This document shows, piece by piece, positions 11,622-64,000 of a stretch of 64,000 bases of DNA (the stretch's first letter is position 1; each line of letters starts with the position of its first letter). Made by a program: the position numbers and the translations under genes. The stretch spans positions 2,472,738 to 2,536,737 of the forward strand of contig NC_052404.1 of assembly GCF_009389715.1 (NCBI RefSeq). The letters run 5' to 3'. The notes under the pieces are model-generated. The model saw only the letters and a list, made by a program, of their open reading frames with translations. It was not told the DNA's origin and did not search any database. Source of the stretch: Phoenix dactylifera (lineage: Eukaryota > Streptophyta > Magnoliopsida > Arecales > Arecaceae).

Positions 11622-14529
11622 ATGGAGGTGGCGTTGATGGGCCGGCGGGCCGGCGTGGTGAAGCCGGAGCTCTTCGCGACCAGGAAACTTGGGCTCGTTG
11701 AATCGGGGCGGACAGGGTCCAGAGTGGACCGGATCCGATTCGATCCGGCGACCGGGAGGGGCCGGAAAGGGGCGGTTAAGATGGCTCGCAGTGGCGTCCG
11801 GTCCGAGATGGCCGTCCGGGAGGCAGAATTGAACGCCCCAAAGAAATCGGTAAACTCTTCTCTTTAATGTTTCATGTTAGATTTAAGATAACAGATCTGG
11901 TAGAGCTAAGTACTTTTTTTTATTTTTATTGGGTAATATGGAAATAAATCGTAAGAATTTGAAGTTGTTGTTGTTTGTTTGTTCATCCATCTTGTTCGAG
12001 TAAATCGCCTGTGTAACTCGATACAGAGAACAGCGTACGTATATGGAACCAACTTCTTGGTCACTACCTTCTGCTCTTTTGTACCATGGTTGAGCCCCAA
12101 AGCCTTTTTCCTTGAAATAATAAAAGTGGAAAAAATGACACCCTTTACCATCAAAAGAAAAAAAAGACGCCCTTTGTTCCGCTTCCACCAAAAAAACCAA
12201 AGGGAAAAGAAAAAAAGGCACCCGTTTGAACACGTGCATAGAAGTTTCTATATGGGTCATCCTGACTTTCGGGGTCGTGTCTACCGAAAAAATGGAATCG
12301 GGCTGCCCCGTAGAGATCTCTGTCGTTTTGCAAAAAAAAAAAAAATAAAATAAAAAAATAAAAATATATATGCAAATAATGCTTTACAAAATATTTATAC
12401 AATTCCAGATTTTTAAGAAGATTCATATATAAAAAATTTTAAGTTTATTTTTTTTATTTATGCAATTTCGATATTAATTTAGAAGGTATTCATAAAAAAA
12501 TTCAATATTTAGAAGAATATTTATGTAAAAATTAAAAAGATTTTTTATGTATATACATCTTCCTAAATATATAAAATTGTATGAATATTTTCTAAAATTA
12601 CTATTTATATATACACTCTTATAAGCTTTTTTGTTTTACATGTTTATCAATAATCATATTTTCATTATTTTAATTTTAAATCGCTAACTTCTTAATGATA
12701 TTAGACGGTATGAATATATATGCAATATATATAAGTATTTAATGAGGATATACGTATAAATATCAATTTTGAGGGAGTGTTCATGCAAATGCTAATATTT
12801 AAAAAATATATATACCTAGAAAAACCAAAAAAAAGGCACCCGTTTAAACCCTTGCATAGAAGTTTCTATGCGGACGGCTAATACCTCCCTATGGGTCATC
12901 CTGGCTTTCGGGGTCGTGTCCACCTAAAGGACGGAATCGGGATGCCCCATAGAGATCTCTATGCGTTTTGGTAACATAAACGGTCCAGATCACTTCAATT
13001 TTACCGATTACTGGAATTCTGGGGAAAAAAAATTAATTGTTCTTTTTGTTTCGGTTCAGACCGGTCCGGTTCGGCTATTCGTGGGTCTACCTCTCGACGC
13101 GGTCTCCGACTGCAACGCCGTGAACCACGCCAAGGCCATCGCGGCGGGGCTCCGCGCCCTCAAGCTCCTCGGCGCCCAAGGCGTCGAGCTCCCCGTGTGG
13201 TGGGGCGTCGCCGCTGCCGGCGAATGGTCCGCCTACCTCGCCCTCGCCGACATGGTCCGCGACGCCGGTCTCCGCCTCCGCGTCTCCCTCCACCTCCACG
13301 CCTCCCGCCGCCCGGCCTTCCCCCTCCCCGACTGGGTCTCCCGCCTCGCCGACGCCAACCCCGACCTCCTCTTCACCGACCGCTCCGGCCGCCGCCGCCA
13401 GGACTGCCTCTCCCTCGCCGTCGACAACCTCCCTGTCCTCGACGGCAAGACCCCGTTGCAAGCCTTCGAGGAGTTCTTCCGTAGTTTCCGTTCCGCCTTC
13501 TCCGATTTCATCGGCTCCACCATCACGGTAAGCAAAAAGCTTCCACCTTTGTGCGTCTTTTGATCAAAAGCCTCCACCTTTATACTCTTTCTTCATTCTT
13601 TGATGTAAAATTCGTGCTTCTCTCTCTTTGCCACCCAATTTCTTTTTCAGGACATTTCGGTGAGTCTCGGACCCAATGGCGAGCTCCGGTACCCCTCGTT
13701 CCCCCCCTCCACTGGAAGCCATCTGTTTACAGGCGTCGGAGAATTCCAATGCTACGATAAATACATGCTGGCCGATCTCAAACGGCATGCCGAGGAGTCC
13801 GGAAACCCACTGTGGGGCCTCTCTGGTCCCCATAATGCCCCGGAGTACGACCAGTCGCCGGATTCCGGCAACTTCTTCAGGGAGAATGGCGGCTCGTGGG
13901 AGACCCCCTATGGAAATTTCTTCCTCTCCTGGTACTCAGGGCAGCTCCTATCCCATGGTGATCGGATGCTCTCAACTGCATCGAAAGTGTTTGGTGATTT
14001 GCCGGTGACTCTGTCTGCAAAGGTGCCACTTTTGCCCTGGTGGCACGACACCCGGTCCCGGCCGGCTCAGCTGACTGCTGGATTCTACAACACATATGGA
14101 AGGGACGGGTACGATGCCGTCGGCGAGATGTTCGCAAGGAATTCTTGTGCAATGATCATCCCTGGAATGGACCTCTTGGGCAAGGAGCAACCTCATGGCC
14201 TGAGATCGAGCCCCGAGTCGCTGCTATCTCAGATAATGAAGGCGTGTGAGAAGCATGGGGTGAGGGTTTCCGGGGAGAATTCTTCGCTTGATGGCATCGG
14301 CGTAGAAGGTTTTAGAAGAATTAAGGAAATTCTATCTGCAGAGAATTCAAGTGTCGATTCTTTTACGTATCACAGAATGGGCGCTTTCTTCTTCTCGCCA
14401 GAGCATTGGCCTCTGTTTATGGAGTTCGTAAGGAGCATGGCCCAGTCAGAGATGGATTCTGATGATTTGCCAAGCAACAAGGAGGAGAAGTTATCCCTAT
14501 CGGTGGATCGAGAGATGCAAGCAGCTTAA
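11622..14529 (+). CDS. BAM9: Beta-amylase 9 homologue, non-catalytic type, plastid
   Basis: There are three exons, all in phase 0: 11622-11849, 13060-13527 and 13651-14529 (524 aa). Residues 1-76 are basic and Arg/Ser-rich, like a plastid transit region. The glycosyl hydrolase 14 barrel starts near LFVGLPLDAVSDC and includes VELPVWWGVA, GEFQCYDKYM, FFLSWYSGQLL and AMIIPGMDL. As in Arabidopsis BAM9, the substrate-binding Asp before Val-Trp-Trp-Gly of active enzymes is replaced (Leu-Pro), and the Gly-Gly-Asn-Val-Gly-Asp flexible loop is missing. The first catalytic Glu (243, in GPNGELRYP) is kept, and Glu441 (VSGENSS) falls where the second catalytic Glu is expected. BAM9 is regarded as catalytically inactive, with a probable regulatory role in leaf starch metabolism. 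Exon 2 is strongly GC-rich, a commelinid-like trait. A LINE lies 100 bp after the stop. Confidence 0.93.
12213..12971. repeat. Pair of 115-140 bp direct repeats inside BAM9 intron 1
   Basis: Copy one (about 12213-12331) and copy two (about 12832-12971) share gcatagaagtttctat, then gggtcatcctg, ctttcggggtcgtgt, ggaatcggg and agagatctct. Copy two carries about 20 extra bases in the middle. About 500 bp of AT-rich DNA separates them. Copy two ends about 90 bp before the exon 2 acceptor. The spacing suggests a small element with direct terminal repeats or a local duplication. The ends are not TG...CA. Confidence 0.7.
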
Positions 14530-14629
14530 GGGTACTGCTCTGTGCACTGTTAATATATGTATTGAGTAGTAGGGATATGCGGAATTACTGAAATAGGCTG
14601 ATAATATCATTGGTAGAGATACGTAAGCA

Positions 14630-15030
14630 TAGGCCCGGCCTGAGTCATGCTCGGCGTGTGCTACAGACCTGCTCAGTTATATTGGAGGGTGACTTAGCCA
14701 CTGTGATCAACTGGATCTAGGATGGCCCGAGTGGCGGTGGAGGGGGACACTCCTGCTTTAGAATATTTGGACTATGGTGAGTGATGAAGTGGCCTTTCGG
14801 ACTAAGCATGTATTTAGACAGGCCAACGAAACTGCAGATTGGGTGGCTTTTTACGTGGCTTGTCGTTCCGGAGATACCTTAGGGGCCGAGGAGGAGGAGG
14901 AGTTGTCCAGAACACTTTGAAATTTATTGTTATCTGATTTTATTGGATGTATCCGTGCTAGAACTGTATGAAGCGTCCGTTTTTAGCACCAAAAAAAAGA
15001 AAAAAGAAAGAAAAGAAAAGAAAAAAAAAA
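14630..15030 (+). mobile_element. 5'-truncated LINE in the BAM9 3' flank, with target duplication
   Basis: This 400-bp tail of the window's LINE family keeps the end of the RNase H region (gccaacgaaactgcagattg near 14820) and the typical 3' end, then an A-rich tail with G interruptions (14991-15030). It is flanked by near-identical copies of about 15 bp: tagagatacgtaagca at 14614-14629 and tagagatatgtagca at 15031-15045. Because it begins 100 bp after the BAM9 stop, it probably lies in or next to that gene's 3' UTR. Confidence 0.8.
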
Positions 15031-15886
15031 TAGAGATATGTAGCACAAACTTGTCATCTGCTGCTAAATTTTTGAGGCATCTAGATTTATATCGTGCATC
15101 TAGATATATATGTGAGCTGCCATTTTATGTTGTACAATGAGTTTGAGCTGTTGATTATATAATATTTTGGGAAGTATATGTTATGTTTAAAAAACAAGTT
15201 GCTTCCTTCTTGAAGATGTTGTTTGGTTGCTGCTTAGTTTTATGAAGGAAAACCCATGATGAATTCAACAACCATGAGAAACATGATGGTCTTAGTTCAG
15301 AAAAACTGGCTTATATTTGGCAAAACATTTTTTTTTTATAAGTTACAATAAGAGTTTCAGTCTTAATATGTGATGTTGTAAGTATATTGATGATTATGAT
15401 CGTGTTTATTGGAAGGATCCCTGAGATGAGAGAGAATCTACATAATGATAAATTAGATTAGAAAAGGCCCCAGATTAACTGATGTTGATAGAGCAGCCCA
15501 ATCTTTTGAATTAGATGTGGAATCTACGGATAGACACAGAAGAGAGGTGTACAGCTTCATTTGAAGTTATTTATCTAGTCAGGCTTTCCCTTGTGAATTA
15601 ACATAACTAACAAGGAGATATTTATCAGGCTCAGCAATTCTATGATGGACCACACTACAATAGAAATAGCTTTAAGCTTTATAATAATAACATGGCAATA
15701 ATGATGTTCAAGGAGACAGAGTTGCACCTTGGAGCTTTGTTCTTCAACTTCAACTTTCCCTCCTTTCGGCCGGACAAAGGCCCTGACAAGTTGTCTGCGC
15801 GGGATGACTTGGATCTGAAGAACCATATCACTGGTAATGAATCAAGGCTGCTGAGAGGGAGAATGAGAAATTGGGAACCACTCTTG

Positions 15887-16155
15887 GGTAGTGTTTAGTT
15901 CACGGTTGGAATCAGAATCAGAATCGCAATATAGCCATATCTCCCAACATATTTGATTCATGACCAAATTTAAAATAGAATTTGAATACTATGGAAGGGT
16001 AGGGATTAAGTTTTAAGAAATTGGGCACATTCTCATTCCGCTCTAGAGTCAAAATGAAAATGGGACTCCCTCCAACCAAATGGCCGAAATGAAAGTCACT
16101 CATTCCCATTCACATTCACATTTCAGAGTCTCAACTTTTCCCAACTAAACATGCC
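15887..16155. mobile_element. Probable MITE with GTTTAGTT-type ends
   Basis: The left end (ggtagtgtttagttc) and the right end (read in reverse, ggcatgtttagttggg) are short imperfect inverted repeats bounding about 270 bp. The interior has repeated gaatcagaatcagaatcgc and cattcccattcacattcac motifs. No clean target duplication is visible, so the family is not assigned. Confidence 0.4.
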
Positions 16156-18589
16156 TCTGATTCTATTGCAAAAGTAGAGATAGAGAACATGACATTCTTC
16201 TAGGACCTCTGTTCACTTAACAGAATATGTGCGAGGACGAGCAACCATGCACTATTTAAGTACACTAAATTGCATATAATCCTGTGTACAATACCTTTTG
16301 TTCGTATGAAACAAGATATGAACTCAATCGATGTGCATGAGTGACAGATATCCCCATAATCCCAACAATGTAAAATCTTACCGAGACTACCATTAACTAT
16401 AGAGAGTACACAAGCAGACAATATGAATGCATAAAATTTTGTGTAGATGTTGAAACTGGAATTCAGCAGGTGTAGCTCCTAAATCTTGGAATATGTCGTT
16501 GTGATCCTGTGAATACCATATAAAATGGCATGGAATCCTTAATCAGAAATTTTGTTGATAAAGAATATATGAAATAAGAATAAATTTTGCAGCGGCCAAA
16601 AGGGAAAAGGTATATAAACCTCTTTCAGGGTTCTGTTTGATGCCTCACCATCTTCTGTGGTATATCTTCCACATGAGTGGGAATGGATTGGGAACCAAGT
16701 AAGATGTAAAAGTGGGACAGATTGGGGGAGGTTGTGGATCATGCACATCTAAGATTTCCAATATACTAGAAATCATCTCACCCTTTACTCATATTCCCTC
16801 TTCTCTCTTCCTCCGCTGCTCAAAATTATTACATTTTTGTGGTAAATTCAAAGAAAAATGCCACCTTTCAAAAATGAACTCGGAACCTTTCTTTCGTGCA
16901 TGCACTATAAGTGGTACCAAGAGAGGACTAAAGAGTCAAGCCCTACTGGCAAATGATTACAGTTGAAGGAGTAATACTATACTTAAAATGAAATACGAAG
17001 AACCAATGTCCAAGATAAGAAAATCCTTAGCTAAAGAGGTTCTTTTATCTGCAAGGGCAATGGCCTAACTCCCGCATAAGAAACAATTCTTAGCAAACCC
17101 ATGGAAGGGGAGTTTGCAGGGACTGAAAGAGGATGTAAACACAACAAACTCCAAGAAATTAGGATAATGAATTCGAACAAAAAGATGATTCTGCCTACTT
17201 GTGTAGGAATTATGAGTTCACTCTCTCCTTCCAACCCTTTGCTAATCCCTTCAAATTTTTCTTAATCAACATACATGGTGATAATTTTAAAATTTTCCGC
17301 AGAAAATCTAGTATGTTGGATGACCATGTACATGATACTTCATTTCAGGTACAAAAAGCTGAGACCAAATGGTTTTAAAGCTCTATCGACACAGAATTTT
17401 TTAGTAAACATGTAGAAATATATTATATAACCTAAATATCATAGTTTTGAATAGAAAAGGAAAATTACTAAATAAAGCCTGGTACAAGTGAAATACTCAA
17501 AAGATAATTAAAGTGCAAAACAGAACTAAAATTTTCTCCACCCAAAGCATAATATACTATTAGATGGAAACCATTTCATACTATTTTTCAAATATCATAT
17601 TCAAAAGTAAAATACTGAATCTGAAAATTTCTGCTCCATTTTCTCCCAAAAAAAGAAAGCAATTTGCACCACTTCTAACCTGGCTTAGATGTGGGACCAT
17701 TCTCCCCCAATTAAGCCCAAGCAAGCAAGAAACAGATTTCACCTTTTGGATGTCGTTATAAGCTGGAAGAATTTAAATGCCCCAAAGTGCTCTCTGAATT
17801 TGTGGATATCTGCAATCATCACGTTCCATAACAGCATTCAAATTTCCCAGTTCCACTTTGATAATCCAATCCTTGGCTGGGGGATTCATCAGCCACAGAA
17901 ACAGACTCACTTCCACTACAAGCTGAGCCATCAGTCGTATGTGGCGTCATCATATTCCACTCTGAATGTTAGCATTTTAGAGAACAAGGTATCACCACCA
18001 TCCTAGTCACTCTATATGGATACTGCAATGAGAGCATTTGAGAGCAGAGATCTTTTGGCACTTCATCAGATTGCCCTTCATTTCTCCTGCCTTTGAAACA
18101 GAGTCAGAATTCTAGAAAAGATTCTAACATGGTGAATTGAACCTTCTCAGGCGATAAAGGCCCATTAAAGGCCACCGTGACTGTCAGTTTTACATATCCA
18201 ATAAAAATCATCAAGCCAATTTTCGGTAGTCCAAACTCCAAAGTATAGCTCAAGGTTCAGCAGATTTTTCCTAAACATGGCCAATAAAGTGAGGATGGAA
18301 ACAATCTGATATAAAATTATCAACATGCTTTATTATTATGAAAAAAAAAAAATCAAGGTTAGTCTGCGAGGAGAGAACATCTCAAATTGTCCCTCTATAC
18401 AACGTAAAAACTGTCTTTTGTAACCTAATATATTTTCTCTGGTGCAAAACCATCAGAATAGAGAGATATACATGATGCATTTTATCTTTTATCCTCGGGA
18501 AAGAGTAGTTTTCTATTGCATTTGATATCACAGATTGTAGCATCCAGCTCCAAAGCAGCTGTGCTTGTCTTTGCTTTTCGTTCCGTCTC
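16156..18589. other. Spacer between BAM9 and the VAP gene
   Basis: I find no coding exon here. The right-hand part probably includes the 3' UTR of the leftward VAP gene, whose stop is at 18590. No further repeat structure stands out. Confidence 0.45.
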
Positions 18590-21500
18590 TCATGGGTGCA
18601 ACAGGTATCCAAGGGCCACACCAACTATTGTCATGAAAACCAGAAACAAAAAGGGAAAACCAACCTGAGTCCCTGCCATACACTTCCTTCTGAACAATAT
18701 CTGAAATTAGACACCAAGATATCAGAGACCCATTACATTCTATAAGAGAATGGTTTCCACAAGAAGGTACTGACAAACTGAATAAAGAGGACGAAATCAT
18801 ACTAGGACATAAATAAGAATGCTAGTCTGAGTGAATGACCAGCCACTACATAAATGTTTGATTCTCAAAGGTGCATAAAGATATCAAATATGCAAAGATA
18901 AATTATGTAAGGCAGGAAATCATCAAGCAACTGCACAGCAATGTGTGCACTAATTTATTCATGAGCTACTTGAACTTGATGTAACAAAATGGTTGCTGCT
19001 CATCTAATTGGAAGGTCTAAAGAAATTAGAGGCACAAGAAGCAATTCAAGCATACAAAATAGTCCCCTTTTTTGGGTGGACGTGGGGAGTGCAGAAGAAG
19101 CCTCATGAAGAAAAGGTTCTATTCTTCGTTATTGCAATGCTCTATAGACTACTGCATAAGCAAGGCTTAGAAAAGTGTCAATCAGAGCAGTTATATAGTT
19201 TAAAAGGAATAGAATTAGAGTTTAGAAATTAATTGGTTTTCCCTGATTTCCCAGTCAAATAAGATGCAAATTTCTGAACTAGAAAACAGTAGTGTTACAA
19301 GAGATAAAAATTTGCTTCTAAATAAAATAAGACTCACTATTTCTTGTTGCAACTTTTCCCTCTCTTGAATGGCTGCACCATTCTCTTCTTTCAGCCTTGT
19401 GACTGTATTTTCAGCCTGGAAAATTACCCATTTCTCTTATACTTCAAAGATTATCCTTTGAATAACAAAGTATATTTCAATGAAGAAGTGCGGCAGAATT
19501 TGACAATAGATTTATAAAAGAAAAAACGATAAATCACTTGCACCTACTGTGACCTGCTCCCTCGATTTATGTGCAATACAGCAGTTCTATCAATAACATA
19601 CAGAAAAGCCTATTTTAACTAACAATATGTTCTATGCCATGCTAGATCGTGGAGAAGAATTATATGGACTTGGAAGCAGGTTACGTCTGAAATCTAAACA
19701 AAACCTTTAAGAAAAAGTTTGTATGCTCAAATGGAAGAGCAGACATTACAACATCATTTCCATTTCTCAGTATCACCAGAGAGCAACTGTGTTCACTTAT
19801 TATTATGATACTTGCTACCATATGTTATCTATACCTAAACTTAGAAAGCATAAATCTGGAACCGCAGATCCCCAATTTGAGCAAGAATCCTGATTACAGC
19901 ATGTGATGGGCCAATGATAAAGGTAAGCATGGGGGTGCAGAAAAGATCCAAGAAAGTGGCATTAAGAATAAAAGTATCAAAGACTACAAGCTAGGCCAAA
20001 ACTCAAGTCATATGTATAAAAACTGACCTCATTTAGTTTCACTTCAAGAACGTTCAGCTTCAACTTTAGATCCTCAACATCCTTGGCAACCTGAAAATAA
20101 TATGAATGGACAATTGAAAAGAGATGTTTCACAAAACGAATATAGAGATTATGGTGTCCATATTATCTATGTACAAAAAAATTAAAAAGCACTGTTTCTA
20201 AGACTGATCATTCAAAAACTAATATGGAGAACCAAACTGATTATGTCTTCTCAATAGAATGCATTTCATTATCCAGTAGGCTCTTTATTAATTTCATATA
20301 AATAATGATAAAATTGCAGCAAAATATAAGGTGCAGTACCTTAGGGTCATAGCAAAACATAAAATGACATGATGTGAAGCTGGAACAAAATCTCTTACAT
20401 GAAATGGGTGAAGATTCTCGACACCATTCATTTCTTGATTGGTTGAAACAGGAGTTTCTTTCAAATTAGGTGCTTCGTAAACTGGCTCCTGCTTTAAAGC
20501 TCCATTAATTGGTTGCGGTACTGGAAAATGAGGTGGGCTAACCAGAATGACTCTCATTTTGTTCTCTTCAATATATCTGCCATTTGCTTTAGAAAACTGA
20601 ACCAGGAAAATGAAGAGGATTATAGAAGGAGAAAACAAAAAGTCAACATTCAGGGCAACAATATATACTCACAGAGCTCGGCATAATTTCCTCATCCATG
20701 GTGCCATATGAAACAACTGTACTCTGAACTAGGAACTTATCTCTTAACTGCATATCAGGAGGAGCTGCCTTTTGAGCTTGCATGGTAACTAGATTGAGAT
20801 TGAATCAGCAACACAGAGATCAGCTAAAAAGAAAGTAACTAATACTAATAAGAAATCTAAGAGATAAATTTAAAGCACCAAGCACAGTTGCCATAATATG
20901 ATCCTACACAGTGATATTAACTCCTAGGTTTGTTTCAGTTAGAAACACTGAAGGCCAACAAAAAGAATTCAATAATGAATGCAGAATCTAGGTGATAAAA
21001 CTAAAATGTGATGCACAATAACCATTATTGTGTTCGTATAGCGGCATTGACTTTTAGGTTCATTTTAGTTGGGAATGGTGACAATGAGAATCAAAAGTCG
21101 CATTTCTGGCATCAAATTTGTTCTGAGGAAATTCACATGATGAACTAACATGATCTTCCATACCACAGAAAGAGCCCATTTGCACATTGAGTGCGCTCCT
21201 CTCCTCTCTTAGTCTTCACATTAGCATTCTTTTTTCATACTACTATATATCACTATTCTATCTCCACTGTTCTACCATAATTTCTACTCTTTGGCTTGCA
21301 TATCATATAATTTCAAAGCCAGCTAGTAGATGAGCTCTTTTGCTGATTTTACTTCCACAGAGTGATTTCCAGGGATAAAATATCTATTAAATGAATTAAC
21401 TTAAACAAAAGAAACGGCTCAGAATAGTCCACTAACAAGACTACCTTCATGGTGATACTAAGGAGAGAAGCATCTAAGTTGTCATAGGAGTGCACATGAA

Positions 21501-24500
21501 TATTGATGTATGGTTAATTTAGATGCACAAATCATGACATAGTTTTATGATATAATGAAGCCACGGAATAGCCTTTGAGAAATCAAAGAAGAAGGATGCA
21601 ATAAAAGTGATATATTTAACAAACAAAAATCTGGCTTGAGTTTTTTTTTTGCCTTCGAATGTTTAACAAGGTCTTGCAGAAACTTATGCTGCACTCATGA
21701 AGTACTTGATGGACTGAATCTCTACAAACATTTAACAAGTGATACACACTCAGAGAAATTATATGAAAAGAAATAGACTGGCCACATCCATAGCTTGTTT
21801 GAGGAAGTGCAACCATCTATTCTTACAAGTGATACCTTGAAAGTACAATTATGCTCATGAATGCCACGTCTACCTGTTTTCCCTTACCTATTTGAATACC
21901 TGGTGATAAGTCCGTATAACTCTTGATCATGGTAAGTCATTTAGTAAATGCAGAATTCAGAATTGTCATGGTGATTGTGATTCCAGTGTAGCCAGAGGCC
22001 CAAGTAATATCTGCACAGTTGTAGATGTTTTTTGACACAGTGGAGTCAAATTTCAGGACTACTTTCAAAAGCCAACATGGGCCAGGACTACTTTCGAAAG
22101 CCAACATGGGCCAATCATGATATTGTCGCCTATCTCCCCCGGGCAACGATTGTTTTTTATCTTCTTTTTGTTGAATGCTCACTCCAAGTGTGCTGCTTTT
22201 CCTCAGACAACAAAAGGGTCATAAATGCAACAACCTTTGATATCATCAAAAGTTCATGATTGCTATTGTTACCTTTTTCAAGAAAATTCCTTTTTCATCT
22301 TACAATATTTTAGAAGTTAGTTAACTTTAACACCCTATTAACTACTTAAGACTTAGTAGCTCTCCTGCCATAGCAAGAATAAGGATCTGGAGGGTCCTGT
22401 AGTTCCTACTATAAAATGGAAAACTAAACATGTGTTACTACTCATCCAATCACTAATTTACTTCCTTGAGTAGCTTCAATTCAGGTTATCATTAGTTTGA
22501 TTGTTCCTTGTCCTCCCAACTTTATCCTTAAATCTTTGGTTGAAGCCTTTCTCATGATGGTTGGAAGCATCACAATGCAAGGACAACACAGATTTCTCTC
22601 CATGAAAATAACAATTATCAAGTCATTCCTCTTCCTAAAGGGAAATAATTAATGCATATAGGTAGGTCCATGAAGTATAATGATAACAAAACCCAAACTA
22701 GGCATCACGTAACATGCATATGGACCTAACTGATTTAATACCTCTCCGCTGGATGACTTAACTCCCTTTCCATTACCACATCTCTTGCAGCCATTCTGAA
22801 GGATGAGATCTACCAAGAAGTTAAAAATAACTTTCTTTCCCAAATATATAAAAGAAGATGTATATGCATCAACACAGGATTTACTGCTGAATAGAGAAGA
22901 ACTCAAAACTAAAAAGGGTGCATTTATGGCCTTGAACAGACACTAGGGCCCGATTTCACAAATCCAGCAGAGTTTTGTAGAATATGAACTTATAAGAAAT
23001 TGTATTAACATTGTAAGGAAGAGCTCTCCTTGTTTATTACATTATATGATTGGAAGCAACGCCTTAAGTTGCAGAACTGAAATTCCTGAGACACCATGTT
23101 CATGGAAAAAGACCTTCTTTGATCTGCATATTTCCTTCAAGTAGTAGTAATGTCAATATGAAATAAACCTTTTTGTAACAATTGCTTATCGATCAAGTTC
23201 CACAAGTCTTTGATCTGCATATTTCCTTCAAGTAGTAGTAATGTCAATATGAAATAAACCTTTTTGTAAAGAGTGCTTATCGATCAAGTTCCACAAGCAG
23301 GACTACGTGGAAGTGACCCTGTAAGGGACCAATTCAAATTCACTACTAACCAATTAGAACTGCTGGCAAATCCTAGACCATGCAGCCGAGTAGTTAGCGA
23401 ACTGATTAAACTTAAAGATTAGATGACCTGGTTTTTATTTGAAGCCAATGCCATCTATAATTTATGCCTCGATCTTTTAATTAGGTTCTAAGTACCACCT
23501 TCATTGTTGTTTAGTTCCTCCTTCTCAATCACATTCTCTCCTCTATATAGAAATGCATATAATGAGATTTCTGCAGGGTTTACATGAGATTAGCTACACC
23601 ATTCAAGGCTTCTCATTTGAGTCACCAGAAGCAATATTCTTGCAGCCATTGTGTTGATTCGAAATGAAGAATAGTATTACAAAGTCAATGAGGGAGCTTT
23701 ACTTACAAGATGTAAAAATCATAAAAATATATGACAAGTCAGTAGAATTTGAGGATATAAGATTTCGATGATCAGCATACATGTGAAGCAAAATGACATT
23801 ATATAATTTGAGGATTAGGCAAGTATGCAACTTGATGCCGCATCTCTTTTATTAAACAAACAGCAACGTGCTAATAGCAATTGTATATATGTATAGCTAC
23901 CTGTAAAATCACATGTTGATCTTGGTAGAATGACACCTGTGTTTGGTCGCACACAGTATCTCTTGGGTGATGTAGTTTTGACCTAGTAGATGCATCATAG
24001 TCCAATCAGTCACTATTATGATTCAATCTAATATATAATGACAGAGCCAGAATGGAGGATCAACATTTCATGGTACTAAGTGATTCCCAAATGAAAAATA
24101 AATTGAGACTACATTTTTTTCATGTATATGGTTGGCAGCGAGGGGGAAAATTTGAGTGCAAAAGGCATTTTAGTGATCAATGATAATAGTGAAAAAATGA
24201 ACAGAACTAAGAACAGAAATTTAGGAAGGCATAGGTGACCATGGACAACTAGCATAAGCAATTCAAAAATTAGTTACTCGTGCTACCGAAAGACAGATCC
24301 AGAAATAACACCAGAAACCTGCCCTAATGAATGATCTTAAAAATCCATGGGAATAATCACAAAGCTCTTGTAAGCACATAATTTTTCAAGAGGCAACAAA
24401 GCAGAATTTGCAACCCCTAAACCACTGCTCTTTATAAGCAGCCACATTATGAATAAAACACATGCAAGAAAAAAAAAAAGCAAGAAGCACTAACTTTGAA

Positions 24501-44379: not shown

Positions 44380-47242
44380 GCGGGTCACGCCACGGGTGGA
44401 GGAGGACACTGCAGTGAGACGAATATTAGTGGAGTTAGATTCAGGTGGACTGAGGAGGGTGAGATATCTAAGATTGGCCAGCTCCCCAGGCCGGAGACCA
44501 GAATTGCGGAGACCGAAATTGCAGCTTTGATTCGGCCAGTGTCAGAAATGAAGGTGCAGGAGGCGGTATGGGGCCTTGCAGAGGATAAGGCCCCTGGTCC
44601 GGACAGGTTTCCACCCTTCTTCTTCCAGAGGTATTGGTGCATTATTTGGAGAGCAATGGTAGAAGCAATACAGCTTTATTTCAGCCGGATCGTGATGACA
44701 GATGATTGGAAGGCCACTTACATCACATTGATACCAAAGCGTCAGGACGCTTCGGAGCCGAGTCACTGTAGACCCATTAATCTATGCACTACCTTGTATA
44801 AGGTGGTGGCGAGAATCATAGTGGGGAGGATGAGGATCATGTTGCCGAGAGTTATCAGCCAGGAACAGGGAGCTTTTGTCGGGAGGGGGGGCAGAGCATC
44901 TCGGACAATATTCTGCGGGCTCAGGAGATGATGGGGGATTTATAGCGAGCATCGAGGAGATGATGCTTGATGGCAATAAAGCTGGACATGGAGCGTGCTT
45001 ATGACCAGATCCGGTGGGACTTTCTTTAGCGAGCGCTCGAGAGCTTTGGTTTCCATCAGATTTGGATTGATTGGGTTCTAGGATGCGTGCAGGGGCCTAG
45101 CTATTCCATTCTGATGAATGGCACGCCATCGCCATTTTTTCGAGCTACTATAAAGCTCCATAAGGGATGTCCTCTGTTCCCCTATTTATTTATCATTTGC
45201 TCTAATGTTCTTTCCCGTGCTTTGCATGTAGCTTGTGGAAATCGAGAGTTGGTAGCCTATAGCCCAGCCCCTGGCGTCCGCCCCATGTCTCACTTGCTTT
45301 TTGCAGATGATTGCCTCCTACTTGCCAGGGGGAAGGTGACGGATACGAAAGCCCTACAGGGCATGTTGACAGAGTATTGCGTGATGTCCGGGCAGAGAGT
45401 CAATCTCTAGAAGTCAGCCATATACTATAGTCCGAGCACGGAGTGGAGGGCGCGACGGGAGTTCAGGGCGATTCTAGGGATGCGGGAGCAGGAGGGGGCC
45501 CTTGTTTATCTAGGGGTCCCCCTCACAGGGAAGTGGTTGCGGGTGGCGGAGTGTTCTACCTTGGTGGAGAGGGTGCAGAGCAGACTTGAAGGCTAGAGGG
45601 CATTATCACTCTCCATGATGGGCAGATTGACACTGATTAGGTCAATTTTGCGCTCTATGCCTATCTATCTAATGACACATACTGTTGTGTCGAAGACGAT
45701 ATTGGTGGAGATTGAGCGGCTTATGCGGAACTTCCTTTGGGGCTCCCTAAGGGGGCCACGGGGTACATCTGGTGGCCTAGGAGAGAGTATGTATGTCACT
45801 GCGAGGGTGGTTTGGGTATGCAATCACTTATGGAGAGGCGCGAGGCACTCCTGGCATGGCACGCAGTGCAATTGGTCTTAGAGCCGCATGAATTTTGAAG
45901 TCGGGTCATGACGGCTAGATATGGTCGGATGAGATCTGACGGGCAGGTGGCAGGCTGCCGGAGGAGTTCCTTTATGTGGCGAGAGATTGGGAAGTGTGTG
46001 ACCTATTCAGACTAGGGGCGGCGGAGTGGGATGGCGACAGACTGGGCCAGTTGTTTGGGGAGCATTTGGCATAGCAGGTTCAGATGCTCTCTATTTCGGG
46101 ATTAGTCAGTCCGAATGTTAGGATTTGGAGCACTACTTGTGGAGCCAGTGCTGGGATTGGCAATGTCTCTCGGGCTCTTCAGTAAGAGTCAGAGCCGGCC
46201 TTAGACTGTGGTTGGGTGTGGAGGTTTGGGCTACATCAGAGGGTTGCTCTCTTCCTCTGGAAGGTGGCCTGGGAGCGTCTGCCGACGAGTTCAGTGCTGA
46301 GTAGACGAGGAGTGAGCATCTCTCCCTTGTGCTTGATTTGTGGGGTAGACAAGTTGGTGGATCATGTGCTATTCTAGTATATGTGGGTGAAGGGTGCTTG
46401 GAGGTTGTCAGGAATCCCGAAGGATGCTTGGAGCCAGAGAGATAGTTTTCTGCAAAAGGTTCGGCAATGGTCTGGTATCCCCCAGATGCGTTACGTAGCT
46501 ATTAGGGCGACCTGTACAGTTTATCAGGTATGGCTAGTCAGGAACACCCGGATATTTGGCGAGCTCAATTCATCCCCGCGGCTCGTGCACAGGCAACAGA
46601 GATCATCTGTGCAGCTTCAAACTATAGACTTTTGGCAGCTCGGGACATCTGGGGCTCTCATATTGCTTCGGCCACTCCATATAGGGTATTCTTTACCCTG
46701 GAGCCCCCACCTCCGAGTTTTCTCAAAGTCAATTTTGATGGCTCAGTCATTGAGGAAGGTAAGAGGGGGGGAGCTGGATTCATCATCAAGGGGCCGAGCT
46801 CCAGTGCGGTGGCAACAGAGGACTGTCAGATTTTCGATACCTCGGTTTCGAGAGCAGAGCTGCGGGCGGCCTGGATGGGCATGTGCTACACGCGATGAGT
46901 GCTTCAGGCAAGTTCAGTCATTCTAGACGGTGACTCGGCCACAGTTATCAGTTAGGTCCGAAAGGGGCCCGAGCAGTGTCGGCGGAGTTCACCCCTTGCT
47001 CCGTGATATTTGGATGATGGTGACTGAATATGTTACATTTTAGGCTACGCATGTATATCGCGAAGCTAACGGGGCGGCCGATTAGATGGCGGCATATGTA
47101 GCGAGCCACTCTAGAGACACCCTATGGACTAGGAAGGGAGAGATGTCCAGAGCGTTTCAGAACCTTCTGTTTTCTGATTCGATTAGGTGTATTCATACTT
47201 ATATTGTATGAAATGCCCACTTTAGCTATAAAAAAAAAAAAA
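44380..47242 (+). mobile_element. L1-type LINE, 5'-truncated, with reverse transcriptase and RNase H
   Basis: This is the longest copy of the window's LINE family. It starts just before the reverse transcriptase domain: KAPGPDRFPPFFFQRYW near 44590, TLIPKRQDASEPSHCRPINL near 44730, QEQGAFVG near 44860. The catalytic Phe-Ala-Asp-Asp lies in SHLLFADDCLLLARG near 45300. The thumb region (YLGVPLTGKW, then MGRLTLIRSILRSMPIYLM) follows. A C-terminal RNase H domain begins FLKVNFDGSVIEEGKRGGA at about 46730. It ends in an A tail at 47230-47242. ORF1 and the endonuclease are absent, and the frame is broken by several stops and shifts, so it is not active. An added RNase H domain is known in some plant L1 lineages. 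I see no certain target duplication. Confidence 0.88.
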
Positions 47243-47792
47243 AGAAAGAAAGAAAAGAAGTGTTCTCCATCGTACCTCTGGAAACCATCTTCATAAGCTC
47301 GCTATGGAAAGTATAAACCCGAGCAAAAAAAACTCACAACTAAGCATTCTACTTGCACTAATAAACTGCAAATTTTTAAGAAAGATAGTGGCATGATGTG
47401 ACTTTTTAGAATGGATGACACCTCACCGAATCGCATCAGAAAGTTGTTGAATATGGTCATTAGTAGTTTGACATCAGCAAGGAAGCAATCCTATGATACC
47501 AAACAACATTTAACATCTTCCCTCCATGGAAGAAACCTTGTCATGATGAGGTGAGTACTTACCATCAATTTCGACCGTGCAGAGTCATTGGGACCCCACA
47601 AAGCCCACAAACACCCCATGCTGTAGGTTCCCCACATCCTCGTCACCTTGCACCAATGCCAACCTTTGCCCTGCCGCCCATCCCCCAATCACCACACTCC
47701 ACATGTCGACCACTACACACTCCACTAAGCACCCCTGCCCTCCCTTGCCTCCCTTCTTTAAACTCCCACGCACGCTTACAGCACCCCACACA
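47243..47792. other. Upstream region of the AGP gene
   Basis: An A/G-rich stretch (aaagaaagaaag) follows the LINE tail. The last 250 bp are C-rich (ccccac/cacccc motifs) and lead into the AGP start codon, probably promoter and leader. No clear TATA box was fixed. Confidence 0.4.
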
Positions 47793-48221
47793 ATGGCCAC
47801 CACCACCACCACTTCCCTCACTCCCTTCTCTACTCTGACTCACACACAACTCCTCTTCACGCTCTTGGCTGCACTTCTCCTCCTCACCAACCCCGTCTCC
47901 GACGTCTCGGCGGTGCCGGCTTTCCTCCCTGTTGAACCTACAGCTTCCTCCATTCCACCCACATTGGCCCCTGACAAGATGCCTTTGCTCCCCTCACCAG
48001 GAGGCAATGCCGGGGCGGCGCCGGCCGGCGCGTTGCCGACCGTTCCATCGAGCCCGAGCCCGCCGGACCCCGACAAGTTGCAGCCCAATTCTGCCATCGC
48101 TCCATCCGGTTCTGCTGCTGTGACGTCGGTGGCGAGTTCTCTGGGAAATTTGGGTAAGCTGAGTATGGATTTGGTTTGTGGATTGGTGCTCATGTGGTGG
48201 TTAGAGTTTATGGACAAGTGA
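47793..48221 (+). CDS. Classical arabinogalactan protein of the AGP25/26/27 type
   Basis: A single-exon frame of 142 aa starts at an ATG in good context (cacacaATGGCC). A signal peptide with the hydrophobic core LLFTLLAALLLL ends near DVSA (residue 40). The mature part is Pro/Ala/Ser/Thr-rich with spaced Ala-Pro, Ser-Pro and Thr-Pro pairs, the pattern for hydroxyproline O-arabinogalactan. The blocks VPAFLPVEPTAS, DKMPLLPSPGG and LPTVPSSPSPPDPDK match the Arabidopsis AGP25/26/27 group, as I remember it. The C-terminus (MDLVCGLVLMWWLEF) is hydrophobic, like a GPI-anchor signal, but ends in Met-Asp-Lys, which is unusual. The protein would be secreted to the cell surface. Its position between BAM9 and RUNKEL matches the Arabidopsis order and supports the call. 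Confidence 0.85.
   Translation: MATTTTTSLTPFSTLTHTQLLFTLLAALLLLTNPVSDVSAVPAFLPVEPTASSIPPTLAPDKMPLLPSPGGNAGAAPAGALPTVPSSPSPPDPDKLQPNSAIAPSGSAAVTSVASSLGNLGKLSMDLVCGLVLMWWLEFMDK

Positions 48222-50893: not shown

Positions 50894-50938
<45 letters not shown>
50894..50938. repeat. (TA)n microsatellite
   Basis: An uninterrupted run of about 21 TA units lies inside the outer hAT-like element. Confidence 0.95.
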
Positions 50939-50942
<4 letters not shown>

Positions 50943-51868: not shown

Positions 51869-52038
51869 CCGAGAAGTGACCTGAACCAACCAAATTTTGT
51901 TTGGGTAAGGTGGATTATTAGTTCCCACATTGGCTGTTCAATTCCAATTTCAAAATTAAGAACCTATTGAAATTAGACCGATCGTACATTAGCCTATAAC
52001 AAGAACCAACACAATCCATGTGCACCCCTAGTAACAAG

Positions 52039-52944: not shown

Positions 52945-55620
52945 AGTCCCACACAGTATGATTGAAAATGAAATACTTCACTGTAGAGTCTATGCTGAAG
53001 AAGTTTCAGTCCTTAGCACAAACGAATATGTTGATAACCATGAACTGTTTATATGTTGATAATATCTTAATTTTTGGTACTAATATGAATATTGTAACTG
53101 ATATCAAGAATTTTTTATCTAATAATTTTGATATGAAAGATTTAGGTCAGGCAGAGGTAATTCTTGGTAACAGGATAACCAGAATACCTAATGGTATAAT
53201 CTTTGATCAATCACAATATATTGAGAAAATTTTGAAAAAATTTGATAAGTACAACTGTAAACCAGTGAGTACACCTTATGAGCATGGTTTGAACTTGAAG
53301 TGCAACAAAGGTGATCCAGTGGCCCAAGAAAAATATGCTCAAATTATTGGGACACTGATGTATGTTGCAAATATAAGTAGGCCTGACATTTTCTATGCTA
53401 TATGAAAGCTCAGTAGGTTTAATAGTTGCCCTAGTCTTAGTCACTGGGAAGCACGGGATAGAGTACTTAGATACTTGAGAGATACCATGTCTTATGGTTT
53501 ACATTACTCAAGATTTCCTGCTGTACTTGAAGGATACAGTGATGCTAGTTGGATCACTGATTCAGTGAACCGAAAAGAAACTAGTGGATACATATTCATG
53601 TTGGGTGATGCAGCTGTTGCTTGGAGATCATCCAAACAAACTGTGATCACCAAATCCACTATGGAGGCTGAGATTGTAGCCTTAGATTCTGCAACTCAGA
53701 AGCAGAATGGTTTAAGAATCTTATGTCAGAAATTCCTATTATGGAAAAGCCTATACCTGCTATCTCTTTGTTATGTGACAATAAAGCTGCAATTAATACT
53801 TGTAGAAATACTGAATATAACAAGAAAAACAGAAAACACATTAGTGTAAGACATAAGACAATTAGATACCTAATTAAAAATGGTATCGTAACTTTGGAAT
53901 TTGTTAGATCTGAAGGTAATCTAGCAGATCCTTTGACAAAAAGGACTAGCTAGAAGCAAAGTTATAGAAACATCAAGGGGGATGGGACTGAAACTCATAA
54001 GGAATCATTGACAATGGCAACCCAACCTATTCTGACTAGAGATCCCAAGACGAAAGGTTCAACGGAAAAAACAAGTTGTTTAATGATTAGTTAGTACTAT
54101 TATTAAATGACTTTATGTCATTTGGTCTCTTCCTATGATGTAAGTGCTAAACACAGCAGAGGTATACGGAAGAGTTTAAAACTCTGAATGAGTCCGAGTC
54201 TATGGTAAGGTGCTGTGCTGCAAGCACCCTTGGAGGATTCACCTATGTGAGTGTGACTGTGTGACCGCAGTCTATGGGGATAAGGGTTTAACCCCTAGAA
54301 CGCTCATGAAACTAAGATATTGGTGCATGAGGCCGAAAAGCACCACCTATGATGAACCCAGTATTTACATTTGTCATGGGTGAAGTATATGGAAATATGA
54401 ACCAAAGGATTTGGTTCAAAGCTTTTTAGCTACCACTATTCCTTTCAGATATAAGTATATTTTCATTAGGTAAAGGTTCAAAGCCACAAGCTACCTTTAT
54501 TGAAATCGTGACATGAAAAGCCCGGTATGACTATTTTTTATAAAATCTTGAAAACATTTTAATCAGGTTGGGGATTGTTGGATTAATTAATGATTAAATG
54601 TTTTATTTTGTCACCATCCTTTGGTGGTACGGTTGGTTTGTGTGTGGGGTTGTTCTCACAAGGATGTGAGTTCGAGTCCTTCCCGCAGTTTTTGTGTCAC
54701 CCCTCTTCCCGCATTTTTCCTAAAAGCCTTTGCTGCTTTTACGTCCGTGCAAGGAAGCTTGCACAAACGTAAAAGCAAGTGCTTCCTTTGCTGCTTTTAC
54801 GTCCGTGCAAGGAAGCTTGCACGAACGTAAAAGCACTTCGCATCCCTCAAGAACGCACCCCACGAGCGCGAATCCTGGGCCTTGCGCGCCTGCACGAACG
54901 TAAAAGCGAAGGATCGCGACCGTGGTATCGCGCCTCACGCGACGTCCGTGCAAGGAAGCTTGCACGAACGTAAAAGCAAGTGCTTCCTTTGCTGCTTTTA
55001 CGTCCGTGCAAGGAAGCTTGCACGAACGTAAAAGCACTTCGCGTCCCTCAAGAACACGCCCCACGAGCGCGAATCCTGGGCCTTGTGCGCCTGCACAAAC
55101 GTAAAGCGAAGGATCGCGACCGTGGTATCGCGCCTCACGCGAAGAGTCGCGCCCCACAGGCACCCCTTGTGATACGTCTCGTAGAGGTCTATAAATAGAC
55201 GACCTCTACAGATTAGTAAAATATAAAAACATCAGAAGCAGAGGATTCCTAAACTCTCTTCTTTCTCTACTCTCTCTTCCTACCAGTTAAAATATTTCTT
55301 CCAAATTTTTTTAAACGGGCTTGCTGCGTATTGATTCTGGGTTCGAAGCCTTCTTTGATCCGTGCAAATCATCGAGGCAGAAGGAGCGAGAGGCTGTTGT
55401 ATCTCAGGAGTAGAACGCCATCCAAGCCTAGTGCACTGTAAGGCGGCGAAATCTACTTCAAGGAAAGTGACCAACATACCACGCCTCAGCATCTCGAGTT
55501 CCAATTTTCTACTTTTTCTTTTTAATTTTTTGTTTTAGCCTATTACTGCCTATTATTTATTGAAGTAGAATAGTTTAGTTTTATTTCTGCTTCAAATTTA
55601 TTTGCAACATCTACAACCAC
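52945..55620 (+). mobile_element. Ty1/Copia fossil, 3' part with one LTR, broken
   Basis: The fossil retains the second half of the reverse transcriptase (Tyr-Val-Asp-Asn near 53050, DMKDLGQAEVILGNRI near 53140), the Copia RNase H region (LEGYSDASWITDS near 53530 and SSKQTVITKSTMEAE near 53630) and the C-terminal HISVRHKTIRYLI near 53840. A purine-rich stretch ends at about 54566, and a 3' LTR of roughly 1.05 kb starts TGTTGGATTAATTAATG at 54567 and ends near 55620. Gag, protease, integrase and the 5' LTR are absent. The coding part has a few breaks and is not functional. Without a second LTR its age cannot be estimated. The LTR carries a TATA box (ctataaatag near 55190) and the hairpin array described separately. 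Confidence 0.8.
54728..55110. repeat. Tandem hairpin array in the Copia LTR
   Basis: A roughly 201-bp unit begins at about 54785 and again at about 54986, preceded by a partial copy at 54728. Each copy holds a near-perfect 42-base inverted repeat, gcttttacgtccgtgcaag facing cttgcacgaacgtaaaagc with a 4-base loop. A half copy of the palindrome recurs near 54890 and 54935. The units also share ccacgagcgcgaatcctggg. All of it lies upstream of the LTR TATA box. Confidence 0.9.
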
Positions 55621-59226: not shown

Positions 59227-62200
59227 TCAAACACACCGAGGCAGTCTTTGCAACTCTAAGCCTAAATTTAAAGCAGCCTCTGCAACACCATGAATACTGG
59301 AGCTCTTGAGTTTCAAGACAATAGCTTCCATTCGCATGACTGCTGGAATAGATATTGACAGAATCATTGCCTGAGACAGGTATTGTCTACAAGAAAAGGC
59401 AAGACCGTACAGAAGACGCAGCAACTGCAAGACAGAGGAATCATAGTGCAATGATTCCAGAAGACTGCAGATTTTGGGAAGGTTTGTTAAAAGGCCCATT
59501 GTGGCTTCTCTAGGGGATGCCTTGAGTAGCAAAACCACGCACTCTGATGCCAAATCCATAATTTGTGCATCAGAATTCGCAATTAAATCTAGAAACACAC
59601 CAATGTTGCTAGCAAAGTCACTGACATCCTTGATGCAGTGCTGCTGATCAACAGCAATACTCATGTCAAAGGCATTGTTGCCTAAGAGAGCTGGTTCTTT
59701 ACAAAGAGCTATGGCCTTATTGCTACCAATGCCACGTAAAATGAATGCCTTGCAAAGACCCAAGGTGGGTTCAAGAAAATCCTCCATTTCCTTTGCATTC
59801 ACAAACTCAAGAAGATTTCCAATTTTTCTGACCACTCGCAGATGAGATAGAATTTTAGTCTCCATTTCAGGAGCAGATGCTAGAGCCAGACAGAGCTTCA
59901 CATTGTTCACATTTGCATTAGAAAGATCACCAAGCAAGAACTCAAAGCACTGCGATACTGTTTTCAAATGCAGAATATCTGAGACTTTAACATAACTAAA
60001 TTCAATGAGCATGACTAACAGCTTCTGAGCATACATTGGAATGGGATCTTCATCTTCAATCAGTGTTGGGTAAAGAGGAAGAAAGTAGATTCGTGATATT
60101 GACCTCAGATCCTCCACTATATGCTCATGATCAGTTACTGTAGTATCACTGAAGATCACAACCATCACATCAAATAATATTTTCAAACATAAGAATCTGG
60201 CATCTCCATCTTTATTGCCCTTGTACATAATTGCTAGGCTTCGAAGAATTCGACTAGTAAATACCTTAGGATCATCAAGAATAACATAAGGCTCCTCTGT
60301 GACTGATTCAAGCACTCGAAGCAACGTAATTTGGAAATCATCTCTTCCCTGCATTACATTTAAAACATAAGTGAAATTCTGGTGGGCATTTGAAAAATTC
60401 TTGGGATTAGAAGCTCATCATAGCTTTTACTGTAATAGGTGCAGAAAAGATGTGATACAAAAATTAATGATAATAATTTGGAATATTGCCTGACAAAATA
60501 TAGGCTTAAGAAACTGCAAAATCTGCAAGCTTAGTATGATTTGTACCTGAAAAGGTGCCTCTAAAAGTTTGATGATATTTGCCAACTGGAGCAAGACATG
60601 ACTGCTCACCACCTTATGCTTGAAAGAAGAGCTTCCGAGAAGATGAAGAATAACCGGAAATAGATGAGCACTGTTCTTTGTGCTACCACGTCCAGTGAGA
60701 GCAGCAATCGGTCCATGGCGTTTACCTCCCATCATCTGTTGTATGTCTCCAGAAACAGTTTCAAGAATAGATGGTACAGTATTGGCAACTACTTGCACAG
60801 AAGCCAAGACACATTTCTGAATGAACCCGCCCTTCTCCTTCCCCAACCTATCAACCGCAGATAGTACCTTAGCATTGCAAAAGAAATGGGGAAGCCATCT
60901 ACGGCTGTTCTTACATAGAAGTGCCCCAAAGATAAGTGCTTTCCCACGTAAAATTTCACTTCCCTGCTCAATAAGTGATACAAGACCTGGGACCAAGTGC
61001 TTTTCTTCCATTAATGATAGTAGATGACGGCCCATGTTTGTTAACGAATGGCTGCTTAGAATTGACATGTTAAGTAGATTTAAGCTAATCTGCTGCTCAC
61101 GTGGGTTGCCCTTGATGAGCGCAGATGCAGTGTCCTTAAATGACAACCTCTCAAACACTAACTGTATGCACTGTGGGCTGAATCGAGCTAGACGGACTAA
61201 ACAAGATCCAGCAATAAGCCTTGTGCTCTCCTGTTTCCCTGTTGCTTTATATATATAACAGAGATTTCCAATCACATCCTGGCTAACAAAACGTGATGTC
61301 CAGTCCCCTCCTTGACTACATATGTTCTCAATTGTTCTTAAAGCATACAACTGGGCAACATCATCTTCTCCTCTGCGCAAAATTGATGAAACCAAAGTAA
61401 TCACAGAATTTGGGACCTGTTTAAGCAGCCAGTCTATTAGAGGTAGCCAAAATAATCATCATTCATCATACAAGAACTGGAACTGATAGACAGAGAGTAA
61501 TCAAAACCCAAAAGCCTAAAGCCTACTAGACATGCATTCTTATTGTCCAAGATGTGAGCTCACAATTAATCTGCAAAGAAAGCGAGGCCCCTATAGCAAG
61601 CTGTTACTAGATGATGCAGGAAAGTAAAATTTAAAATATATAATCAATTAAATTAAGATCTAAATGACAATCCTCATCTCCCACAAGACTATTGTTGGAT
61701 ACCTCAGAAGTTCCAAAGCAACCATTTTCAATATGCAGATCATGAACCCAAAAAATCATACATCGAAAAGATAAAATATAAACAACAAGTATTCATTATT
61801 GCATGCTTCAGAAAATCTAATTAAAAATCACATAGATCTACAAACTAGACTGGAAATGAAAAAAGGCATTGTCAAAAGATTAGATGACAAGATTAACGAT
61901 AAATTGCCTCAGCATCAGACATTTCTAACCTGCCAACTGGATGTAGACCGGTTGTCCTTCGACGGAGATTCAAGGGTATTGCTATCTTTCGCATTATTAT
62001 CAGCCTGAGTAGATATGTAAAAAAGCAGTTCCCCTAAAGCAGCCATGGAGAACCTCCTTATTTTGTCATGTTTGTCCCTTAAGCCATCTGTTAATACATT
62101 TACAATTCCAGAATTGGCAAGATCAGCTTCAATAAAAGTGGAATGGCGAATCAACAAACCCATCACTGAAGCAATCTGAACACGCAATGCAGGTAACTTT

Positions 62201-64000
62201 GAAAGCCGTAGCATTTTTACAAGCAACGACATCACTGGCCCATTGGTTATGATATTCGCAGCATCAGTGTTTCCGCTTAAAATTTCTAAGTATCTGACGG
62301 CATTCTGTTTCTCTGAAACCTGAGAGCTTCCACTCAAACTATGAATTATGCGAGAGTTAAGTGCATTCATTTGCTCCGGAGGCAACTTAACATAATCTGC
62401 AGCAGGAACAGCTTCAAATGGCAAGGAGGGGATACCATCCAAAGCTTTATCACCTTTTCTACTGGGCATTACAGGTTTGACTGAGAGATCTGATGGATGC
62501 CAAAACACTTCTGATAAATCATTGGATGACCTAGATGCCTCTGAATCAGGGGCACTCCCAGAAGCCACTTTCACACGTTGAGCTTTCCTAAGGTTGGCAC
62601 TGGGTGGGGTAGCAACCACTTCAAGCGGTTCTGAGCATGCATCCTGCTCAACTTTCTTCAGGTCATCAGACCCAACAATAATATTGTCAGGAAGATCATC
62701 CAGCAGTTGACTCATTTTTTGCTCTACCTCTTCAACTCTTTCATCAGCATTTTGAGTTCGCAGTTTCTCTGTAGGTGTACAAGCAGGATTCTCAGATGCA
62801 TCAGATTCATCAGGTGTATCATCTTCAGGATTCTCACTAAAATCTAGTTCCATGTCATTGTTTTCAATTTTCACTTCAGCTTCATTCTCACATGTCTCGG
62901 GCAGCGGTCGCCTGTAGTTTTCCTTCTCATTCTCTCTCTGCAAATTCAACTTAGCCATCCTTGACAGCCTAAGAAGATTTACACCTTTTGCAGCATCGAC
63001 TCTCCGAGAAGCTTTTGTAATTTTTCTGCCACCATGTGCATTCTTGGCTGGTGTCTCGAAAACCCCATTCCCTTTAGTAGAATTTTCGTCATGCTTCAAA
63101 ACTCCATTTGTATTACTTTCACGGCGTTTGGGAGGAGTTCTCTGTTGGGAAGGTCTATCACCGTTTCGCTCTGAGAGGTATGGTTTAGAAGAAAGTTGAA
63201 GCATGTTACTAAAAGCTGGCTGAGAAGGAAGTGGCACTGAAGTGAACTTCGTTCTCCAAAAACTATGCTCACAAAGTTCAGGCCACTGTAACCTTTCAGC
63301 TGGATCTTTTATTAGGAGGCATTTAATAAGATTTTCAAAAGATTTGGAAGGGTTATCAGGGAGGGGTGGTGTAGGATCTGAAATTATAGATTTCACCAAT
63401 TGGGTAAATTCATTTCCTACAAAAGGTGGCCTGCCAGCATAGCATTCATATAAGACACAACCCAGAGCCCAAAAATCAGAAGCATAAGAGTGGACTCCGC
63501 CATCCTGAAACAGCTCAGGAGCCATATAGCATGGTGTTCCTCGCTTTGACTGAGGCAACTGATGGACGCAACATTTAGAAAAAACAAAATAAAGATCATT
63601 TTCAATTCAGAAAATGTTATTTTGCAAAAGTTGTGTATGCAAGAATAGGTGGTTAAACGAAGGAGTTGAGAAACCAACCATGGCAACAGAGCTCTTCTCT
63701 ATGTCACTTAATCGCCTTGCTAATCCAAAATCACAAAGCTGAGAATGAAATATATGAAAGAAATGTATGAATATATTAAAAAATAAGTATCTAACATAGA
63801 ATAATATCATTAGCAAATCAAATTTTAATACCTTCATACGTCCATACTCATCTAGTAAGATGTTTGATGGCTTAACATCACAATAAATGATCCCTTTCGA
63901 ATGCAAGAACCTAAAAAGTATCAAGATTTAAAATGTTATCGCACAACTAAATTTATAAGTAGCAAAACATGTGTGTAGCATTTACTGAAGAGCTTTGACA
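59227..64000 (-). CDS. RUK: RUNKEL, FUSED-like kinase of cytokinesis (N-terminus cut by window edge)
   Basis: Exons in transcript order are 63986-64000 (partial), 63832-63910, 63679-63738, 61930-63558, 60547-61416 and 59227-60348, giving about 1257 residues. The first roughly 100 lie outside the window. The kinase domain shows GIIYCDVKPSNILLDEYG (Tyr-Cys-Asp replaces His-Arg-Asp), LCDFGLARRL, GTPCYMAPELF and SDFWALGCVLYECYAGRPPF. Then come an acidic linker with ENEKENYRRPLPE and DVFWH/EVFWHPSDLSVKPVMPS-type blocks, and a long ARM/HEAT-like region (VQIASVMGLLIRHS, DKHDKIRRFSMAALGELL, ANVNNVKLCLALASAPEME) ending LELQRLPRCV. This matches Arabidopsis RUNKEL/EMB3013 (At5g18700) throughout. RUNKEL is a microtubule-associated protein needed for phragmoplast organisation in cytokinesis. 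All in-window exons are intact. Confidence 0.95.

Follow-up and report, generated by a model that had tools for sequence, protein, structure and literature searches.

A 64,000-nucleotide stretch of contig NC_052404.1 of the date palm, Phoenix dactylifera (C13:2472738-2536737, with C13 denoting the contig; hereafter the window), carries predicted BAM9 and AGP25-type genes and the 3' part of RUNKEL (RUK) in the order of their published Arabidopsis locus codes. This arrangement is very probably conserved ancestral microsynteny, and not a functional cassette; the block would have doubled in palms and then lost different genes on C13 and on a second contig, C3. The three genes are as follows:

11622-14529 (exons 11622-11849, 13060-13527 and 13651-14529), plus strand: BAM9 as best fit, probably a non-catalytic beta-amylase (Pfam GH14, gene model)
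47793-48221, plus strand: predicted AGP25-type classical arabinogalactan protein gene, single exon, 142 amino acids (reading, gene model, composition)
59227-64000, minus strand: RUNKEL, 3' part, cut by the window edge (PF24970, PF23606 and PF00069)

The span from BAM9 to RUK is about 55 kb, and a VAP27-type gene, an acyl carrier protein (ACP) gene and a NET3 remnant lie inside it. The original prediction had named the trio, its order and its strands. Presence is supported by GH14 and a gene model for BAM9, by a single-exon gene model for the AGP25-type gene and by PF24970 for RUNKEL, and the strands are those of the gene models and domain matches. The order agrees with the codes At5g18670 for BAM9 (PMC6394054, PMC8774843), At5g18690 for AGP25 (PMC9755587, PMC5372829) and At5g18700 for RUK (PMC4712874), and the code between the first two, At5g18680, belongs to a tubby-like gene (TLP; PMC7106719). 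These codes, like the other published statements used below, come from excerpts of the papers cited. Under uniform placement, the chance of finding one of the two AGP copies within 40 kb of BAM9 and the sole RUK within 55 kb of it is estimated at ~3e-8. Among open-licence PubMed Central texts, no publication was found that links the trio, either through BAM9 with RUNKEL or through two or more of the four Arabidopsis codes. Nor did a cotton BAM paper contain At5g18670, or a rice NHX1 paper, as searched, describe the genes beside NHX1.

A second copy of the block on contig C3

Gene families were searched for in the whole assembly (773,078,369 bases, 2391 contigs), and the counts obtained are lower bounds. 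VAP (minus), ACP (plus), NET3 (plus) and AGP (plus) occur in identical order and on identical strands on C3 and C13. A tblastn search of the window proteins against C3 retrieved the ACP exons at 95% and 93% identity and NET3 in three pieces at 71, 76 and 86% and the AGP at 68%, all on the plus strand and in window order. The VAP domain gave at least 11 matches, including C13:2496639 and C3:11260817, both on the minus strand. For the AGP, 30 scored candidates yielded at least two places, the gene itself and the C3 copy (69% identity). Further collinear stretches join window 31.8-49.6 kb to about 21 kb of C3, and those longer than 200 bases are ~66-72% identical. This base-by-base comparison covered 30 kb of C3; matches from window 37.1-39.0 kb (in order, repeat-like), from 45.4-47.3 kb (inverted, LINE) and five from 3.5-15 kb (out of order) were left out of the collinear set.

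The two copies differ in what they have kept. NET3 on C3 (11291947-11292537) is open from the KIP1 exon to the stop, and the C13 copy is a pseudogene because it shows five insertions or deletions of frame-breaking length relative to it. The first NET3 exon, presumably marked by a WWWDSH motif, was found neither in the window nor in the 30 kb of C3. To the left of the C3 block lies a TLP gene (C3:11214959-11221771) that accounts for four of the at least 33 tubby matches in the genome. Of the places where these fall, ten have a strong match and four have fragments alone. None of those listed is on C13, and a search of window 1-11.7 and 14.5-59.3 kb at E 0.001 likewise gave no tubby domain. In the genome-wide searches neither GH14 nor the RUK domain had a C3 match among the matches listed. 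A Cu/Zn-superoxide dismutase gene (CSD) follows just past RUK on C13 (2546270-2549957; window coordinate ~73.5-77.2 kb), with a counterpart at 11.376 Mb on C3; the family has at least 10 matches, of which two are at C13:2546270-2546588 and two at C3:11375859-11376181, all four on the plus strand. On C3 the VAP27-type gene (11260817) and the NET3 gene (11291947) are about 31 kb apart.

Placing VAP, ACP and transposons between the trio was right as far as it went, and the NET3 remnant and the missing tubby gene had been overlooked. VAP and ACP also lie on both palm copies and thus predate the palm duplication, so that their status as things that merely stand between the trio has to be corrected. 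The idea of an ancestral block that survived expansion is supported by the duplicated block on C3 and by the Arabidopsis locus codes. The intervals are not simply longer on C13: VAP to ACP is ~11 kb against 18 kb on C3, and ACP to NET3 ~7 kb against 13 kb.

Age of the duplication

Synonymous divergence (Ks) between C13 and C3 is 0.439 for the AGP (141 codons, the C3 gene being read from an upstream Met in the open frame) and 0.168 for the ACP (85 codons). Pooling both gives (37.8+9.0)/(113.8+59.8) = 0.27, or a corrected Ks of ~0.33. The published Ks peak of date palm, ~0.32, is attributed to a palm duplication ~75 million years ago (PMC10787024), and the pooled value falling on this peak favours that duplication as the source of the two blocks.

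Identity of the three genes

The BAM9 model comprises three exons with GT..AG introns and encodes 524 amino acids. GH14 (PF01373) matches exons 2 and 3 with E values of 2e-18 and 1.8e-46, and among solved structures the best match is "Beta-amylase 1, chloroplastic" (8j5d; 5.1e-103). Alignment with the latter reveals a five-residue gap at the GGNVGD loop, showing that the flexible loop is gone, and a Pro in place of Thr342 (FTCIE aligned with IPGMD). The missing loop sets BAM9 apart from BAM4, where it is present and not conserved, while Thr342 to Pro is common to both and hence not specific to BAM9 (PMC8774843). BAM10 proteins mostly keep Glu380, have the loop substituted and often carry Ser at residue 342 (PMC6394054). 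On these features BAM4 was set aside for the missing loop, and BAM10 for the loop and Thr342; judged by sequence, BAM9 is the best fit for the palm protein. Its two-exon pattern (profile 1-145 and 147-402) occurs once, here, among the listed matches of at least 47 to GH14 in the genome. NCBIfam gave no match for BAM9. Intron 1 contains two 71-bp direct repeats (12251-12321 and 12890-12960) that are 89% alike, and a GH14 fragment with two stops lies 2.2 Mb away, at C13:4706034-4706315.

The predicted arabinogalactan protein contains 48.6% Pro, Ala, Ser and Thr over its 142 amino acids and 61.5% without its ends; a signal-like start and a hydrophobic tail are discernible, both by eye. No Pfam family matches it at E 0.1. 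In Brassica rapa, AGP25 to AGP27 have 50-55% of these residues and 126-140 amino acids, as read from an excerpted table. Assignment to AGP25/26/27 is supported by the position of the palm gene next to NET3, as the code of AGP26 suggests for Arabidopsis (see below).

RUNKEL is identified by PF24970 ("RUNKEL ARM-repeat domain", 1.6e-121) together with ULK4-type HEAT and kinase domains, with matches spanning 59227-63927 on the minus strand. Its 5' exons lie beyond the window end, the start being near window coordinate 67.3 kb. Genome-wide, PF24970 gave one match from one candidate, and no second gene with the RUK domain is seen among the matches listed.

Arabidopsis and rice neighborhoods

Two further Arabidopsis places combine the same families by code. 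One comprises a TLP gene (At2g47900), NET3C (At2g47920; PMC5100027) and AGP26 (At2g47930), and the other AGP27 (At3g06360), NHX3 (At3g06370; PMC3726471) and a TLP gene (At3g06380). At three Arabidopsis places a TLP gene and an AGP25-type gene are close by number, and the two families lie together on palm C3. In rice, two BAM genes with poor active sites are Os03g22790 and Os07g47120 (PMC9695277). By number, a TLP gene (Os03g22800; PMC10228137) and CSD1 (Os03g22810) are consecutive with the first, and NHX1 (Os07g47100) and CSD4 (Os07g46990) are near the second; CSD1 and CSD4 are stated to stem from a block duplication between chromosomes 3 and 7 (PMC9191229).

Genes and elements between the trio

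The remaining features identified between the trio on C13 are as follows:

20676-20792 and 23902-23982, minus strand: VAP27-type gene, two MSP exons seen (PF00635, exon reading)
34900-35028 and 35348-35476, plus strand: last two exons of a plastid-type ACP gene (reading; similarity of the C3 exons)
42733-43330, plus strand: NET3-type (KIP1/NAB) remnant, pseudogene (PF07765, 1e-16; frame breaks against the C3 copy)
44204-47250, edges approximate, plus strand: insert of ~3 kb resembling a long interspersed nuclear element (LINE), with RVT_1 and zf-RVT domains and no counterpart at the C3 site
52962-53405, plus strand: RVT_2 of a copia-type retrotransposon fragment (Pfam), with an open stretch to 53849 by reading alone

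The names VAP and plastid-type ACP rest on motifs that we take to be diagnostic of these proteins. As the LINE-like insert is absent from the collinear C3 site, it either arrived after the duplication or has since disappeared from C3. No intact pair of long terminal repeats was reported for the whole window, nor when three intergenic parts were searched again. An RVT_3 (reverse transcriptase-like) match (7.4e-12) occurs in one frame of window 20900-42700, and a tandem array of ~32-bp units occupies 40248-40546. A match to the MatK N-terminal domain (7.3e-15) falls in the frames of window 1-11700 or 14500-21000, 9 of the 18 frames having been excluded, and is probably plastid DNA in the nucleus. 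The flanks of the window on C13 contain a Sec63-type exon (2444149-2445099; 1.4e-05, narrowly below the curated threshold) and a polyubiquitin gene (2555198-2556118).

Origin of the block

The following history would account for these arrangements. BAM9, a tubby-like gene, an AGP25-type gene and RUK may have stood close together in the ancestor of monocots and eudicots, an age beyond that of palms. NET3 (beside the AGP), VAP, ACP and CSD would have joined them, or already been present, no later than in the palm ancestor. The two copies would then have arisen through the palm-wide genome duplication, and it is from these that we infer the order before duplication. On C13, BAM9 and RUK would have been kept, TLP lost and NET3 left to decay; on C3, TLP and an open NET3 would have been kept, with BAM9 and RUK not seen, so that the TLP beside C3 may be the one lost from C13. 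VAP, ACP, AGP and CSD would have been retained on both. Insertions, for example the LINE-like element, probably lengthened gaps and left the order unbroken.

Independent assembly of the trio by chance in palms and in Arabidopsis is extremely improbable. In its favor, one plant genome alone was searched whole, whereas the estimate under uniform placement, the four genes in common order and strand on the C3 block, and the TLP and CSD genes beside that block, which match Arabidopsis or rice neighbors by excerpted locus number, all speak against it. Less improbable, though still unlikely, is that C3 and C13 derive from a local segmental duplication or from an older, monocot-wide one. The disparity of the AGP and ACP Ks values would fit such an origin, as would the restriction of the base-by-base comparison to 30 kb of C3; however, the pooled Ks sits on the palm peak reported in PMC10787024, and an identity of ~66-72% in stretches of at least 200 bases outside the three genes misfits an event ~150 million years old.

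It is very unlikely that the genes have been held together by selection on linkage, either through shared regulation or through joint action, as with VAP27 and NET3 at contact sites between the endoplasmic reticulum and the plasma membrane. In Arabidopsis, VAP27 and NET3 proteins interact and work together at these contacts. The short distance between the two genes on C3 agrees with this idea, and an excerpted study of VAP27-1 at the contacts lists NET3C among its genes (PMC5100027). By the codes in the same excerpt, however, NET3C (At2g47920) and VAP27-1 (At3g60600) are unlinked in Arabidopsis; on palm C13 NET3 is dead while its neighbors are open; and the losses fell on different members in the two copies, the pattern expected if linkage is not selected. 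The data do not call for such selection. The fullest form of this idea, in which BAM9, TLP, VAP, ACP, NET3, AGP25, RUK and CSD formed one block in the ancestor of monocots and eudicots with its linkage selected for the VAP27/NET3 contact sites, is equally unlikely.

Several observations weigh against an ancestral block duplicated with the palm genome. The second catalytic Glu (Glu380) is retained in palm BAM9, whereas Arabidopsis BAM9 has Gln there (and BAM4 Arg); the excerpt that reports this describes the active site as poorly conserved among orthologues (PMC8774843). Since the replacement is stated for the Arabidopsis protein and active-site conservation among orthologues is poor, Glu380 was not treated as defining the clade. 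The AGP and ACP Ks values differ, the latter being from just 85 codons. On C3, TLP is ~39 kb from VAP and CSD ~81 kb from the AGP (25 kb on C13), and both genes are assigned to their families by domain. VAP and ACP are seen near the block in palms alone. Adjacency in Arabidopsis and rice is that of excerpted locus numbers, not maps, and the comparison with Arabidopsis is one of order. The methods of PMC4712874, in the portion available, place a mutation in RUK on chromosome III, in conflict with the code in the paper's own table. The rice BAM codes could, from their source, be BAM9 or BAM10, and a passage of PMC9191229 takes the upstream region of CSD1 to Os03g22790, which misfits a TLP gene between them. 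Open-licence PubMed Central texts yielded no position in rice for AGP25 or for RUK.

Conserved microsynteny followed by differential loss makes this region a worked case of an old neighborhood divided over a duplicated pair of blocks. On its own, neither block resembles Arabidopsis; jointly they hold BAM9, TLP, AGP and RUK, as At5g18670-At5g18700, and also TLP, NET3 and AGP, as At2g47900-At2g47930. Such blocks aid the assignment of orthologues for short, fast-changing genes such as those of AGPs, for which sequence alone is weak. For BAM9, which regulates starch use, the block also offers a fixed reference in a fruit crop.

Comparison with known blocks

By the excerpted codes, At5g18670-At5g18700 shares with palm C13 the order of BAM9, the AGP25-type gene and RUK. 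It differs in the TLP number between BAM9 and AGP25, no TLP being found on palm C13, and in that NET3, VAP and ACP cannot be fitted into four consecutive numbers, whereas palm C13 has VAP, ACP and the NET3 remnant in between. At2g47900-At2g47930 and At3g06360-At3g06380 share with palm C3 the linkage of TLP and an AGP25-type gene, and the former also has NET3; among the numbers seen they include no BAM9 or RUK code, and the latter includes an NHX gene. The blocks on rice chromosomes 3 and 7, for which the available codes bear on BAM-type, TLP, CSD and NHX genes alone, share with palm a BAM gene near a CSD gene by number, with TLP in the first, and CSD flanks both palm blocks. The region also resembles the paralogue blocks left by the palm whole-genome duplication, as far as PMC10787024 is excerpted: the C13 and C3 blocks form a collinear pair with a Ks near 0.32, no difference is seen, and differential gene loss is ordinary among such blocks. 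The region is a clean but ordinary example of conserved microsynteny.

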